Positions 1-25,558 of a stretch of 64,000 bases of DNA are shown here, piece after piece. Origin of the DNA: a virus; IMG/VR virus record IMGVR_UViG_3300004369_000006, positions 19,288 to 83,287 of that record, one strand, 5' to 3'. A model generated the notes under the pieces. That model was not told the DNA's origin. It saw only the letters and a program-made list of their open reading frames with translations, and did no database searches. A program made the position numbers and the translations under genes. Positions within the stretch are counted from its first letter, which is position 1, and each line of letters begins with the position of its first letter.

Positions 1-2474
1 TTAATGAAGCTGAAACTAAGAAGTATAAAGCTATTAAAGAACTGCAGGAAGAAATTAAAAAAGAAATAGATGCTCTAAAAGCCGCAGGTTACACTATGGA
101 GCAGGCTAATAAGATGATCTTTAATGACAAAACAGGTAATATTATTAGCAGATATGATTCAGAAAAGCGTAATCTTATATTTCAAGCAAGAGAAAATAAC
201 GATGTAGCATACATTAAATCAATTTATGAACTGACTGATGAAGGTAAGAATCGTTATTTATTAGATTTAGAAACACGTAAAAATCGTTTAGCTGCGATAC
301 ATGGAGAGTTTTCTGCGGCATATAACAAAGCGGTAAGTAAGTTTATTGATGAGAACGACTTAGCCAACTCTGAAAATGCTTGGTTAATTCGTGCAGCGGT
401 AAATAAATATGCTAAGCTTAAGAGTGAAGAAGAGAACTACAGTGAGGAATATAAAAAATTACCACCTGCTGTAAAGAAGTATGTAGACTTCTATTATGCC
501 ACGATGCAGAAGTTTAATGCAGCTTTACCTAATGAGTATATCAGGGAAAACTTTGTGCCTAATCTTAGAGCACAATCTGCTGGTATTCTAAGACAATTAT
601 TAGGGGTAAGTGCCCCTAAAGATTTATTTAATCTTATCAAGCGTAACACGGTAGATGGATTGCGTTTACGTCAGTCTGAGATTACCTCTCTTACCATGGA
701 CATCAATAGTCCTGACTTGCGTGTACCCTTAGCATATAAAGATAACTTTGAGTACTACGATAAAGAAACTCATGAATATCGTGCATCATATACTCGTGAA
801 GAAAACAACTTTGCTAAGAGTAAAGATTTGATGTATAACCTTATTATGTTTGGAGAAGCAGTGTATCACAAATCCTATATGGATGAAACTTTAGATACTA
901 TGCAAGCTCTTATGCAGTATGCTAAATATAAGAAGTCTTATAAGCAAGATATTATTGGGGGTATCAAAGGATTAAACCGTGGTTATAGAACTCCTGAATT
1001 AGAGCAGTCTGATCGTATTTCTAAAAATCTTACGCAGCTTATTCGTACTCATGTTCTACGTGAACACATTACAAGTAAAGATGTAATTATTGGCAAGAAT
1101 ATTTCAGCTAATAAAATGGTAAGTGCCTTAATTAATTCAGCTCGAAACATGGCTTTAGGATTTAACTATAAAGCTGCTTTTGCTGGGTTTATGACAGGAC
1201 AAGCTAACCTATTAGCTTACAGTAGAAAGAATAGGCAGATTACTCGTAAGGGTCTTATGTCTGCATATAAACATATGCGCTCTGCTAATGCTCGTGCTAT
1301 GAATGAGTACTTTGCAATTGAGAAAGAAAACCATACTCAACGTATAGCAAGGGAATCAAGTAAAAGTATTATAAATAGAATCTTTAATCGCGATACACTA
1401 TATGTTTTTTATCGTGCTGAAGAAGTAACTAGTAACCTGGTACTAGGAGCTATGGCTCGTAACTATGGCGTAGATCCTTTAGATGGTAAAGTACGTAGGC
1501 TTGCTGAGATAGATGGTGATGTTAAGAGTATCCATGATATGTGGAAAGAAGCTACAGATTCAGGTAAGACTATTGAAGACCTTCCTCTGACTGATGAGCA
1601 GTTTGCAGAATTTAGAACTATGGTTCGTACTACTTCACGTAGAATTAAGGGTACGAATATGAATGCTGATCAATCTGTATATTCAGGAAATATTTTAAAT
1701 AAAGTATTTGGAATGTTTAGGACGTGGCTTACTCCTATGCTTATGAATATCTATGGGGGTATCCGTTACAATAAAGGAATGGATGACTTTGAGGTAGGTT
1801 CTGCTCGTGTAGCATTGCAAGAGTTAAAGGCTATGTATGACCTAGGATTACGTAAAGGAGCTGCGGGTCTTATGCGTATGGCAGCATCTAGTATTCCTTT
1901 CTTTGGTAGTCGTTTTAGTAAGATGTCAGGACTAAAGTATGAGCTTAGTAAAAAAGCTTCTTTAGAATCTTATGAGAAGTTTATAGCTCTTAATCCTATT
2001 TATGCTAATAAGCTAACGTTAGATGAATGGCATCAGCTTCGTCAAGATACTATGAATATGCATCATAGTTATGTACGTATGCTGGCTACTATACCTTTAT
2101 TACTTGCAGTGTTAGGAGGTGACTTTGATGATGATGGAGAACGTGATAGTAAAAGTATTGGCGTTTTAAACTTAGCCCACCAATTGGTTTCTCGTTTTCA
2201 AACAGAAATGTTATTCTTCTATGACTATTCTGCAATGCGTGAGATTACACAATCTCCTATACCTATTTTAGGATTCCTAAATCTCTATAAGAATGTAACA
2301 GTAAACTCTTTTGATGAAGCACGAGATTATATTGCAGGAGAAAACAAATTAACTAAGACAGGTAAGTCTGCAGATAAAGCTGAACAATGGCATTATAGTA
2401 AAAGATTTGTTCCTTTTATCTATCAGTATGGTAATTTAATTGAAACTTTAAATTTAGATACAGAAGACGAATAA
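1..2474 (+). CDS. C-terminal part of a large late virion-type protein (5' truncated)
   Basis: The reading frame is open from the first full codon at base 3, with no stop before the window edge, so the 792 residues from the first in-frame Met (base 96) are only the C-terminal part of a larger protein. The visible part is mostly charged, helix-rich and rich in Lys, Tyr and Asn. Two apolar segments stand out: one near residue 350 of the visible part, and one (ATIPLLLAVLGG) followed by an acidic stretch (DFDDDGERD) near residue 690. No enzyme motif was recognised. In crAss-like phages the late arm ends in giant genes for injected cargo proteins and the virion RNA polymerase, and this fits such a cargo protein by position and size. 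That identity is inference from context only. Confidence 0.7.
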   Translation, partial: NEAETKKYKAIKELQEEIKKEIDALKAAGYTMEQANKMIFNDKTGNIISRYDSEKRNLIFQARENNDVAYIKSIYELTDEGKNRYLLDLETRKNRLAAIHGEFSAAYNKAVSKFIDENDLANSENAWLIRAAVNKYAKLKSEEENYSEEYKKLPPAVKKYVDFYYATMQKFNAALPNEYIRENFVPNLRAQSAGILRQLLGVSAPKDLFNLIKRNTVDGLRLRQSEITSLTMDINSPDLRVPLAYKDNFEYYDKETHEYRASYTREENNFAKSKDLMYNLIMFGEAVYHKSYMDETLDTMQALMQYAKYKKSYKQDIIGGIKGLNRGYRTPELEQSDRISKNLTQLIRTHVLREHITSKDVIIGKNISANKMVSALINSARNMALGFNYKAAFAGFMTGQANLLAYSRKNRQITRKGLMSAYKHMRSANARAMNEYFAIEKENHTQRIARESSKSIINRIFNRDTLYVFYRAEEVTSNLVLGAMARNYGVDPLDGKVRRLAEIDGDVKSIHDMWKEATDSGKTIEDLPLTDEQFAEFRTMVRTTSRRIKGTNMNADQSVYSGNILNKVFGMFRTWLTPMLMNIYGGIRYNKGMDDFEVGSARVALQELKAMYDLGLRKGAAGLMRMAASSIPFFGSRFSKMSGLKYELSKKASLESYEKFIALNPIYANKLTLDEWHQLRQDTMNMHHSYVRMLATIPLLLAVLGGDFDDDGERDSKSIGVLNLAHQLVSRFQTEMLFFYDYSAMREITQSPIPILGFLNLYKNVTVNSFDEARDYIAGENKLTKTGKSADKAEQWHYSKRFVPFIYQYGNLIETLNLDTEDE

Positions 2475-20709: not shown

Positions 20710-21588
20710 TTAAAATATGTATCTGATTTTGTTCCAAGGAATAATCTCATCATGCAGTGCAGTCCATTCTTTGATAAGTTTGTCTTTTAGTTGCCACTTA
20801 TAGCGAATGTTCTTACCACCATACTGAGATGTTTTTGCTTCTTGTATTTTAGGAACCCATAACAGGTTTTCACCTGGTAGGTTATTGCTAAGGTTATCTA
20901 AGTGCTTTTTCTCATTGTGAGTAAGAAAGATAACTTCTGCTTTTACAATGTCTTTATAATCGACATAGTTATCTACCATTTCAAATAGTTCACGGTAGTC
21001 CTCTATCCATTCTCTGTATACTACAACAGGAGAAAAGTTAAAGTGTACATCATACCCAGCATCTATGAAGGCATCTGCTGCTTTAATGCGATCTATTATA
21101 GGAGCAGTATTAGGTTCTAGTATACTGCTGATATGTTGGGGCATTAAGCTAAAACGAATACGTACTTTACCTTGAGGATCATAGTCCAGGTATTGCGTAG
21201 GTATAGTCTTAGTAGCAAGCGTAGCCATTGCTTTTGGGTGCTCTTTAAAGAAATCAAATATCCTTCTCCAGTCATGGTACTTATGATGTAATGCAAAGTC
21301 TTCGTTGCATGAGATATCGTAAGTATATAGACTGTCATGAGTTTGATTAGGCTTAGGAGTATCCGCATAGAAATAAGCATGATTGTTAATGGATGTAAGG
21401 ATATCACCTACATTAGTGGCGATATCCAATCCATCATTTCTATTTCTCTTGCAGTAACAATAGTGGCAGTTAAATAGACATCCAAAACCAAAAGAAGGAG
21501 TAATGTAATCAGATGATCGATTACTTATTTTAATCTCAAACTTTCTTCTTGTTACTTCACGTACTTTAGCTAAGGCAGTTTGTGGCAT
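20710..21588 (-). CDS. Radical SAM protein of the spore photoproduct lyase type
   Basis: The 292-residue protein has the radical SAM cluster C-x3-C-x2-C at residues 37-44 (GCLFNCHYCYC) preceded by PSFGFG, as in spore photoproduct lyase (SPL) proteins. A further Cys in DISCNEDFAL (residue 94) lies at about the spacing of the hydrogen-donor Cys of SPL. Later strands (MATLATKT, VRIRFSLMPQ, DVHFNFSPVVVYREW) continue the partial TIM barrel. SPL repairs a UV thymine photoproduct in DNA with S-adenosylmethionine; related enzymes have other substrates. It lies among accessory genes and is not a usual crAss-like core gene. Confidence 0.8.
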   Translation of the reverse strand: MPQTALAKVREVTRRKFEIKISNRSSDYITPSFGFGCLFNCHYCYCKRNRNDGLDIATNVGDILTSINNHAYFYADTPKPNQTHDSLYTYDISCNEDFALHHKYHDWRRIFDFFKEHPKAMATLATKTIPTQYLDYDPQGKVRIRFSLMPQHISSILEPNTAPIIDRIKAADAFIDAGYDVHFNFSPVVVYREWIEDYRELFEMVDNYVDYKDIVKAEVIFLTHNEKKHLDNLSNNLPGENLLWVPKIQEAKTSQYGGKNIRYKWQLKDKLIKEWTALHDEIIPWNKIRYIF

Positions 21589-22927: not shown

Positions 22928-23209
22928 TTATTTATTTGTTTTTAATTGATAGATGTAACCTTCCTCCACAGCTTCTGTCATGTTACCGCATATGGTATCT
23001 TTGAAACTGCTATAGAAGTCTTTAAATTGATTGCTATTCATAAGTCGTGATATGGGATTCTCTTTGATAGTATCCAAGTAAGAGGTAAGACTGCACTGGC
23101 AGATTTCCATTTCTTGGGTTACAAATACCATATCGCTTTCGATGTCTTTAGCAGCGAGTACAAGTACTTCGCTATCATCATTGTACAATACGTGATACTC
23201 TAGATTCAT
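22928..23209 (-). CDS. Hypothetical protein coupled to the GHKL-like ATPase
   Basis: A 93-residue acidic protein with alternating strands at the N-terminus (YHVLYNDDSEVLVLAAKDI) and a helical C-terminus. Its start overlaps the ATPase stop by 4 bases (ATGA), indicating co-translation, so it may act with that ATPase. Family unknown. Confidence 0.6.
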   Translation of the reverse strand: MNLEYHVLYNDDSEVLVLAAKDIESDMVFVTQEMEICQCSLTSYLDTIKENPISRLMNSNQFKDFYSSFKDTICGNMTEAVEEGYIYQLKTNK

Positions 23210-24528
23210 GCTAATTGATGTTTAGAAATTAATAATTTAGATAGATTAAATATTAGGATGTCTTGGAAGTGTCTAGTGCAATCATCTACATTGAAGTCAA
23301 GATGCATAAATTCTTCCAATAGTAATCCTGTGATAAAAGGTAGATTTAGTTTGTCACTACGGAATTCTATTTCCGAGTTAATGACAATCAGGTTTTTACT
23401 GCGGTCTGCTAAACCCCATATTACAGAGTCTGTATTCATGCTTTTGATCTTAGCATATGTAATATCAAACATGAAGATGTTACTAAACTCACTAGCTATA
23501 ACGTCTTTAGCTTCTTCGACTAACCGTCTTAGCTCTATACTTACAAGGTTAATATCCACAGGTCTGTATATCTTATCATCCTGGACATGAGTGTCTGAAT
23601 CATATACAGAAGATATTACTGCATAGAACGAAGAACATACATACAGTACATCTTGATCAGGACTGCCTATTACTTCTTCGATATTCTTCAAGCTAACAGG
23701 TTGAATCTTTAGACTATTAAGCACCTGAATAAACTCTGCACTAAAGTTAGGAGTACATAGACTGCTAATCTTGTTATACTCATAAGTATCAGACATAGTA
23801 AACCGATGGATAAACTGTTTGATTAATAGTTTATCTTGTAATTCAAAGAGGTCTTCAAGATAGTGATACGAAGCCAAGTGATTATAGATACGTCTTTCAT
23901 CTATGGTAATGGACTTAGTAGCATCTATATTAAACATAGCAGGATACTCTTTGATATCACCTGCATAAAAGCCTTGGTAATATACTTTGGCTTTCTCTGT
24001 TTTACATAGGTTATACTTATTACGTGCCCCTTCAAATAGCCATGTGTCTACATAGACGCTATGTAAGCTTCTGACAAGGTCATAAGTATCTCCAGGTCCT
24101 GTATAGATAACCCATGTCAGAGTGTTATCATCCATCTGTACGATATAGTCATCTGCTTCCGTATAGATATTAGCATTAACATCTTGGTCTTTGGCATTAG
24201 ACACCAACTCACGCAGTATCATCCATGGCTCCCAATCAGGACCTATTTCTGTACTGATATTGGTATTGATACCATTGATTGTGATACAGTCTGTAGTATG
24301 CACACCACGGTCAGAATACATTTCTATTTCTTCTGTGCTGATATCTACAGGTTTTGTACCATTATATAGGTAAAACTTAATTCCTTTTCTTAGAAGCAAA
24401 GCAAGAGCGTATTTAATACCACTGCCAAACTGACCAAACTTGGTATTATCATCTCTCTTGGTGCTAAAGCCTATGACTTTAAGGAACTGAAGGTCTATAC
24501 AACCATTAGATTGGATTATAATCTTCAT
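23206..24528 (-). CDS. GHKL-like ATPase with degenerate C-terminal zincin-like region
   Basis: The 440-residue protein has two blocks resembling the ATP-binding motifs of GHKL proteins (gyrase, Hsp90, histidine kinase, MutL). One is an N-terminal GQFGSGIKYALALLLRKG (about residues 32-49), like the G-x-x-G-x-G-x-K lid motif. The other is a later LRELVSNAKDQD (about residue 107), like the E-L-x-x-N-A-x-D N-box. Their order is reversed relative to canonical GHKL domains. The C-terminus has LLLEEFMHLDFNVDDCTRHF, which resembles a zincin HExxH helix with the first His replaced by Glu. It is likely a cytoplasmic ATPase of unknown role; fold assignments are inference from motifs. Confidence 0.65.
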   Translation of the reverse strand: MKIIIQSNGCIDLQFLKVIGFSTKRDDNTKFGQFGSGIKYALALLLRKGIKFYLYNGTKPVDISTEEIEMYSDRGVHTTDCITINGINTNISTEIGPDWEPWMILRELVSNAKDQDVNANIYTEADDYIVQMDDNTLTWVIYTGPGDTYDLVRSLHSVYVDTWLFEGARNKYNLCKTEKAKVYYQGFYAGDIKEYPAMFNIDATKSITIDERRIYNHLASYHYLEDLFELQDKLLIKQFIHRFTMSDTYEYNKISSLCTPNFSAEFIQVLNSLKIQPVSLKNIEEVIGSPDQDVLYVCSSFYAVISSVYDSDTHVQDDKIYRPVDINLVSIELRRLVEEAKDVIASEFSNIFMFDITYAKIKSMNTDSVIWGLADRSKNLIVINSEIEFRSDKLNLPFITGLLLEEFMHLDFNVDDCTRHFQDILIFNLSKLLISKHQLA

Positions 24529-24539
24529 TGTAATTTAAT

Positions 24540-25151
24540 TTAGTATTTGTATTTAATAAATTCAACAAATTTAATAGCGGTTTCTTCTGACCAATTAGCA
24601 ACCCTCTTAGCTTTAGGGTCTTCATCATAGATATAATGCGTTACAAAATACTCAAGTGCATTAGCTAATTCTTCAGTAGATTTATCATTACTATACCCCC
24701 ATATGTAATTACGGTTTTCATAATCCATAGGAAGTTTATATTGTATTTGAAAGTATAACCTTCTAATAGTACTCATTAAACTTTTATCAGAAGGTGTATC
24801 TAGACAAAACTCAAAGTCTTCACTATTATACTCGATAATCTCTTCGGTATTATCACCTATAAAACTGTGAGTCTTATGATCATAATGTGCTTCTCCATAA
24901 GCATGAAAGTCACCAGCCCATGATCCATAGCCTAGTTGATCGTTAATCATTTCTTCTAGACGATCAAATATAGAATAGTCAAAAGAGCTTTCAGGATTGA
25001 CAATAGCACCATCTACGGTAAAGTATACCATACCACTGTCATTGCCTCCATCCCAGTTAGCAACAATCTCATGTCCTTTATTTACGAGGTCATCGAGATA
25101 AACATAAATCTCTTCATTAGACATTACTAAGTCATTAATTAAATTTTTCAT
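24540..25151 (-). CDS. Hypothetical acidic protein
   Basis: The 203-residue protein is strongly acidic, with an N-terminal region NWDGGNDSGMVYFTVDG and a Trp/Tyr/His-rich block YGSWAGDFHAYGEAHYDHKTH (in shorter runs, residues about 92-115). The His/Asp clusters could bind metal. The C-terminal third is helical. No family recognised with confidence. It is coupled to the next upstream gene by a shared base and lies 12 bases ahead of the GHKL-like gene, so the three may work together. Confidence 0.6.
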   Translation of the reverse strand: MKNLINDLVMSNEEIYVYLDDLVNKGHEIVANWDGGNDSGMVYFTVDGAIVNPESSFDYSIFDRLEEMINDQLGYGSWAGDFHAYGEAHYDHKTHSFIGDNTEEIIEYNSEDFEFCLDTPSDKSLMSTIRRLYFQIQYKLPMDYENRNYIWGYSNDKSTEELANALEYFVTHYIYDEDPKAKRVANWSEETAIKFVEFIKYKY

Positions 25152-25558
25152 TAGTCTGTAATTGTTTTAGAATTAGTATTAAATCGGATATCACTTGTAT
25201 CCTCTGATAGGGTATTAAGGGTTTGTTTACTTACGCCACGTTTAAAGATCCATGTAATCTTAGAATCATCTAAAGAAGTGAGGTAATCTTTAATGGTTGG
25301 TATCCAACCTAGGTCTTCCATGATATGCTGTTCGGCAATAGCACGTATAAGAACTTTTTTGCCATCGGTATTATAAAGTATAGTACCAAAGTGTTCTTCA
25401 CACCAGAAGATACCTTCTGCGTGATGTCTGAGTGCTCTATGCCGCATATCAGGCATATGTTTCTTGGTTTCGTCAAACCATTCATGGATAGCAAGGTAAT
25501 CTAAGTACTGACCTCCATGTTTCTTTGCGCTACTAATAGCATGATGATAAGGATGCAT
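25151..25558 (-). CDS. DUF6915-like conserved phage protein
   Basis: A 135-residue protein with a run of conserved-looking blocks: MHPYHHAISSAKKHGG, DYLAIHEWFDETK, MRHRALRHHAEGIFW, and AEQHIMEDLGWIPTIKDYL. These match my memory of a widespread family of phage and bacterial proteins (DUF6915 type) rich in His. The conserved His/Glu/Asp residues suggest a metal-binding helical protein; the activity is unknown to me. The family name should be treated as probable. Confidence 0.7.
   Translation of the reverse strand: MHPYHHAISSAKKHGGQYLDYLAIHEWFDETKKHMPDMRHRALRHHAEGIFWCEEHFGTILYNTDGKKVLIRAIAEQHIMEDLGWIPTIKDYLTSLDDSKITWIFKRGVSKQTLNTLSEDTSDIRFNTNSKTITD

Follow-up and report, generated by a model that had tools for sequence, protein, structure and literature searches.

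A phage protein with a predicted circularly permuted GHKL core, a middle domain and a degenerate zincin-like tail

Described relatives and the gene under study

The GHKL or GHL ATPases include Hsp90/HtpG, GyrB, MutL, MORC and sacsin. Their ATP-binding Bergerat fold carries an N-box (E-x3-N-x2-D), a G1 box (DxGxG) and a glycine-rich lid (GxxGxG), in that order, and in classical members the Asp of the G1 box binds adenine. A GHKL domain combined with an S5 fold is given as the hallmark of MORC proteins (PMC5651269). In phages, the T4 protein rIIA has a GHKL domain (PMC7824862); it is a protein of approximately 725 aa with the motifs in normal order, an intact G1 box (DFGPGM) and a variable C-terminus. 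The minigluzincins selecase, projannalysin and proabylysin, and Wss1/SprT-like proteins, have a zincin fold with an HExxH motif.

Here we describe a 440-aa protein that resembles both groups. It shares the N-box and lid with the GHKL ATPases, whose structures it also matches weakly in the core and the next domain, but the motif order is permuted, the Asp of DxGxG is missing and the C-terminus is unrelated. Its tail has the fold of the minigluzincins and Wss1/SprT-like proteins, but reads EExxH instead of HExxH, lacks the third ligand and forms one polypeptide with a GHKL core. No description of a circularly permuted GHKL core was found in the openly available literature searched.

The gene lies in a window of 64,000 nucleotides, the whole stretch of DNA analysed, taken from a virus record of 83,287 bases (IMG/VR record IMGVR_UViG_3300004369_000006). 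Terminase and portal genes in the record are recognised by PHROG profiles, its major head protein is approximately 45 % identical to those of crAss-like phages, and the phage is described here as crAss-like. Eight near relatives tested for the same property gave no capsid match; these records may be fragments. The features of the locus are listed in Table 1.

Table 1. Features of the 440-aa gene and its neighbours, with positions in the window.
Feature	Positions	Strand	Remarks
93-aa ORF downstream	22928..23209	-	start overlaps the 440-aa stop in a 4-base ATGA
Whole gene, 440 aa: predicted permuted GHKL core, middle domain and pseudo-zincin	23206..24528	-	PHROG 8203 member; ATG at 24528, stop at 23206
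Residues 325-440, C-terminal zincin-fold (minigluzincin-like) domain	23209..23556	-	Foldseek matches to selecase/jannalysin/abylysin; hhalign match to HExxH sisters
Residues 403-422, EExxH-x6-D-x-T-R-x-x-Q	23263..23322	-	homologous to HExxH-x9-H of sisters
Residues 160-260, middle domain common to the sister family	23749..24051	-	Foldseek matches to Hsp90/GyrB/MutL
Residues 94-130, transposed segment containing the N-box helix (GPDWEPWMILRELVSNAKDQD)	24139..24249	-
Residues 20-47, lid/G2 (GFSTK...FGQFGSGIKYALALLLR)	24388..24471	-	G20, K24, G32, G35 and G37 in 95/95
Residues 2-12, strand and G1 box remnant (QSNGCID; canonical DxGxG)	24493..24525	-
203-aa ORF upstream	24540..25151	-	relatives in L005, L006 and L013
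DUF6915 (PF21866) ORF upstream	25151..25558	-	E 1e-41; also occurs close to the homologue in L005, L006 and L013

Conserved motifs in a permuted order

The profile of PHROG 8203, a family of unknown function, matches residues 2-429 of the protein (E 3.4e-32). A tblastn search gave 94 phage records, mostly from Pseudomonas Yuavirus and Bordetella phages, the weakest of them being records of the sister family described below. Most are annotated as hypothetical protein, and a few as HATPase, ATP-binding protein or hydrolase/metallopeptidase. Approximately 70 sequenced phage records, Yuavirus phages used in the laboratory among them, carry the gene, again mostly named hypothetical protein. A profile scan of viral contigs found 283 relatives; contigs of bacterial genomes gave 22 loci, of which some are plausibly prophages. 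A scan of the viral contigs with the single sequence gave no matches, and an alignment was required as query. In a Paraburkholderia symbiont genome (L105:6001-7200) the homologue is broken into two ORFs and is apparently a pseudogene.

An earlier note on this DNA had pointed to a lid-like block near residue 32, an N-box-like block near residue 107 and a C-terminal LLEEFMHLDF. All three are present, as GQFGSG (residues 32-37), LRELVSNAKDQD (residues 105-116) and within LLEEFMHLDFNVDDCTRHFQ (residues 403-422), and the first two blocks are conserved across the 95 homologues aligned. E107, N111 and D114 of the N-box, G32, G35 and G37 of the lid, and G20, K24, E211 and R213 are invariant (95/95). 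Homologues were retrieved with patterns covering columns 34-42 or 99-106 (32-40 or 99-107 for genomes), so that invariance within these columns is partly the result of selection. N111, D114, G20, K24, E211 and R213 lie outside the patterns, and since such columns are equally invariant, the motifs are not due to chance. All 61 proteins of our alignment A2 match the PHROG 8203 profile. The window protein itself sits on a long branch and departs from the family consensus at S7, S92 and Q115.

As the earlier note had claimed, the motifs are in reverse order. The lid precedes the N-box in every intact member scanned, with a single N-box in each (the split gene L105 was kept out of this count, and the few second regex matches are coincidental). 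No intermediates carrying two N-boxes were seen among these members.

A search with the N-terminal 75 residues led to a sister family, PHROG 6077 of Vequintavirinae and vibriophages, with a homologous N-box, lid and middle domain carrying an (L)xxDR motif. Its order is normal: the N-box is near residue 24, the lid near residue 75, and the same middle domain follows, so that the equivalent of residues 94-130 sits N-terminally. In contrast to the permuted family, most sisters have no tail; some carry a homologous zincin tail, usually with HExxH. Single records are labelled histidine kinase-like ATPase, chaperon protein htpG or RIIA lysis inhibitor. One of six PHROG 6077 proteins and the normal-order sister L257 exceed the cut-off of Pfam HATPase_c_3. 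In Klebsiella phage phi1_175008 (L230:271-4134) an RIIA-labelled sister gene is closely preceded by genes for a PnuC-like protein and an NMN adenylyltransferase (NAD salvage).

Three tests agree on a permutation, and the comparison with the sister family is the strongest of these sequence-based arguments. In native order, hhalign of A2 against PHROG 6077 gave two alignments that crossed each other (E 6e-20 and 6e-7). When residues 94-130 were moved to the front a single collinear alignment was obtained (E 1.5e-27); moving two other segments instead brought no improvement. With 86 sisters the values went from 8e-20 plus 1e-7 to 2e-29, and the reordered profile matched the closest sisters across almost the whole protein (E 1.5e-30). 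Against the normal-order sisters L255, L257 and L259, moving the segment turned three out-of-order matches into one, reaching from the N-box to the HExxH tail; for L259 a total E of 2e-33 in three pieces became 6e-38 in one. In the second test the family profile aligned with HtpG over 16 columns in native order (probability 26) and over 119 columns after reordering (probability 77), and other cuts improved the alignment only when the N-box ended up before the lid. The third used the NCBIfam model NF047352 (sacsin-type GHKL, 80 positions). Native members match it weakly over model positions from about 29 to 68, whereas all ten reordered sequences match, mostly from position 3 or 4 to 68, one of them (L106) at only E 0.006. 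In whole records the matched sisters likewise cover 3/4-68 and permuted members only 25-68. A MutL profile, from a set that included partial sequences, gave no gain on reordering.

With native-order sequences Pfam gave no convincing match for any member, as would be expected if the two motifs were coincidental and no GHKL domain were present. This reading is scarcely credible, being already contradicted by the reordering tests and by homology to sisters above the Pfam cut-off; the profile searches proposed by the earlier note thus tie the core to genuine GHKL proteins, and its permuted GHKL claim is upheld by the collinear alignment. The lack of annotation is accounted for by order-dependent models: a single GHKL profile detects both halves in sisters but one half alone in permuted members.

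Predicted structures are compatible with a GHKL core and match a zincin tail. AlphaFold models of the window protein and of a homologue (L028) had pLDDT values of 85.7 (86) and 93.7 (94), respectively. The Foldseek matches in the PDB were led by Hsp90 and by the minigluzincins selecase, projannalysin and proabylysin; GyrB and MutL appeared further down in a second run. E-values of the relevant matches were weak for every class (2e-3 to 6e-2), in part owing to a search bound to sequence order. The predicted secondary structure fits a Bergerat fold, and Hsp90, GyrB and MutL were among the top matches, at low TM-scores in this sequence-order search. The zincin fold was matched with probability 0.85-1.00 to selecase, abylysin or jannalysin in most entries and in two independent models. 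The structure comparison suggested by the earlier note places the two halves near Hsp90/GyrB/MutL and near selecase/abylysin, at these weak E-values.

The middle domain holds the invariant E211 and R213 (ITIDERR here; consensus LTEDRT). It gave no match to the corresponding Hsp90 profile (hhalign probability 0.2 %), and we infer that it is a transducer-type domain.

The nearest normal-order kin in the tree are L259, L255 and L257. They have an intact DxGxG, kept only in these three, and an intact HExxH followed by D-x-T; L255 and L259 also have LSEDRN in the middle domain. Together with the L231-L250 type they show the same three-part architecture as the permuted family, but in normal order and, in most, with HExxH intact. 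Trees were built without the transposed segment and without the tail, and are unrooted. A single branch (support 99-100) separates all permuted members from the rest, as fits one permutation event. Normal order is taken as ancestral because it is common to all classical GHKL proteins; residues 2-12 are the new N-terminus made by the permutation. T4 rIIA was considered as a parent and rejected, as it gave only a marginal match to the sister profile (E 0.0018, one sequence).

A zincin-type tail with replaced zinc ligands

The earlier note had read the C-terminus as a degenerate zincin whose first His has become Glu, and profile comparison bears this out: the permuted tail is homologous to that of normal-order sisters with HExxH-x9-H (hhalign probability 97, E 2e-11). 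E405 corresponds to the first His, E406 to the Glu that acts as general base, H409 to the second His and R419 to the third His. An intact HExxH-x9-H is found in six of the 86 sisters, and 29 loci of a further scan add more. PDB sequence searches gave nothing significant; proabylysin and Wss1 were among three weak matches of the HExxH sister profile.

HExxH with a third ligand is absent from the permuted family, where the motif is EExxH and the third His is mostly Arg. Of the 95 members, 69 have an intact EExxH followed by Asp at +7, and in one more the motif is cut by the contig end. Among the 69, Asp is found at +7 in all, Arg (60) or Tyr (7) at +10, and Gln at +13 in 68; 68/95 retain all five of E405, E406, H409, D416 and Q422. 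The remaining 25 members have lost EExxH, and none has lost the GHKL residues. The losses are patchy on the tree (13-14 changes, at least 5 of them forced). In one clade (L025, L033, L044, L055, L058, L068) the motif has become IGxxH or similar, and these members have a new C-terminus in common. The normal-order proteins L244 and L245 also have EExxH, a second and independent change, and thus His was replaced by Glu more than once in fused zincin tails.

The EExxH state is an old, conserved one rather than a product of local decay. Since zinc ligands are replaced and EExxH is lost in 25 members that keep the GHKL residues, the tail is predicted to be a pseudo-zincin, conserved in 70/95 and further eroded in 25. 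A salt bridge between E405 and R419 could replace the metal. Alternatively, the same architecture may end in a working metalloenzyme with unusual ligands, Glu-Glu-x-x-His plus the conserved Asp and Gln. The five-residue set, above all the +7 Asp and +13 Gln, is strongly conserved for a dead site, and the general base and second His are retained; against this, only one of the three zinc ligands is left, the residue in place of the third is mostly Arg, which is very unlikely to bind zinc, and a quarter of the family does without the motif. We consider an active enzyme unlikely and proceed with the pseudo-zincin.

Nucleotide site, gene neighbourhood and proposed role

No permuted member has DxGxG. 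The position of its Asp is taken by Asn in 87/95 and by Ser in the window protein; Ser, Asn or Thr stands there in all 86 sisters first sampled, and normal-order sisters other than L255, L257 and L259 also lack the Asp. The equivalent Asp-to-Asn change in GyrB and Hsp90 abolishes ATP binding. With the G1 Asp missing, ATP itself is in doubt as the ligand, and the core may be a pseudo-ATPase that keeps the fold and dimerisation and binds no nucleotide, or one other than ATP. The N-box Glu, Asn and Asp, the lid glycines and Lys24 are, however, invariant across a very diverse family, and a site without ligand would hardly keep them. We therefore regard the pseudo-ATPase as the less likely alternative, albeit one with a real claim, and retain a nucleotide-binding core as the preferred reading.

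The earlier note had further joined the gene to its neighbours in a possible host-takeover or anti-defence module. The ATGA overlap with the 93-aa ORF stands, and both upstream families recur in three contigs (L005, L006, L013), the 203-aa family as two tandem copies. The 93-aa ORF has no homologue in the phage collection, and the DUF6915 and 203-aa families occur near the homologue only in these three other contigs, downstream of it and in a different order; a conserved module is for these reasons not established, and the neighbours do not in general travel with the gene. Takeover or anti-defence would be consistent with the early-region location, with the three co-occurrences and with the RIIA label of one sister gene, given the GHKL domain of T4 rIIA (PMC7824862). 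None of the PADLOC models was matched significantly by permuted-family sequences, neighbours differ from locus to locus, and T4 rIIA is only marginally similar to the sister profile; we find the takeover claim unsupported and the module improbable, more so than an active metalloenzyme.

In 31 of 106 loci, RecE/exonuclease VIII, Erf, NinB or DnaQ-type genes lie on the same strand at a distance of at most 3 kb. The profiles used for this count were built from these loci themselves, and early genes of phages cluster anyway. No such gene directly adjoins the gene in the window, and the proximity is only a hint at function. It should be noted that the DUF6915 protein adjoining the operon is phage-borne. 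The window also encodes a radical-SAM protein (20710-21588, minus strand) that matches spore photoproduct lyase (Pfam SPL, E 1e-27), possibly involved in DNA photoproduct repair, and, at its edge, a 792-aa ORF without a PHROG match (96-2474, plus strand).

Taken as a whole, a permuted GHKL core, a middle domain and a dead zincin tail, with the history and mechanism given here, is probably the best explanation. Its parts differ in strength: the architecture and history, read from sequence comparison, are very likely correct, and the mechanism is tentative. The ancestor would have had the order N-box, G1 (DxGxG), lid, middle domain and HExxH zincin. A segment of approximately 37 residues with the N-box helix would then have left the N-terminus and been inserted directly behind the lid/Thr-strand block. 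The G1 Asp would have become Asn or Ser and HExxH-x9-H would have become EExxH-x9-R, with no order relative to the permutation implied.

The analogy to GHL proteins makes a conformational switch driven by nucleotide the most likely role, and we tentatively propose a nucleotide-gated switch with a non-catalytic binding tail. Nucleotide binding would close the lid, as in Hsp90, MutL and MORC, and R213 of the middle domain, a proposed phosphate sensor, would sense the nucleotide. The resulting shape change, probably a dimer clamp, would move the tail, which would bind a peptide or protein without cutting it. The protein would probably act in early phage DNA metabolism.

We speculate, with some reserve, that a single natural permutation, an altered nucleotide following loss of the adenine Asp, and a fused protease turned into a nucleotide-gated binding arm make this a new phage switch protein. 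If true, a permutation has reached fixation in a phage family that is both large and diverse, and un-permuted relatives keep the ancestral order, DxGxG and HExxH. As both forms exist side by side in phages, the event could be dissected: how permutation affects the closing of the lid, what led to the loss of the adenine Asp, and by what route a protease joined to a nucleotide switch can lose its activity and still be conserved.
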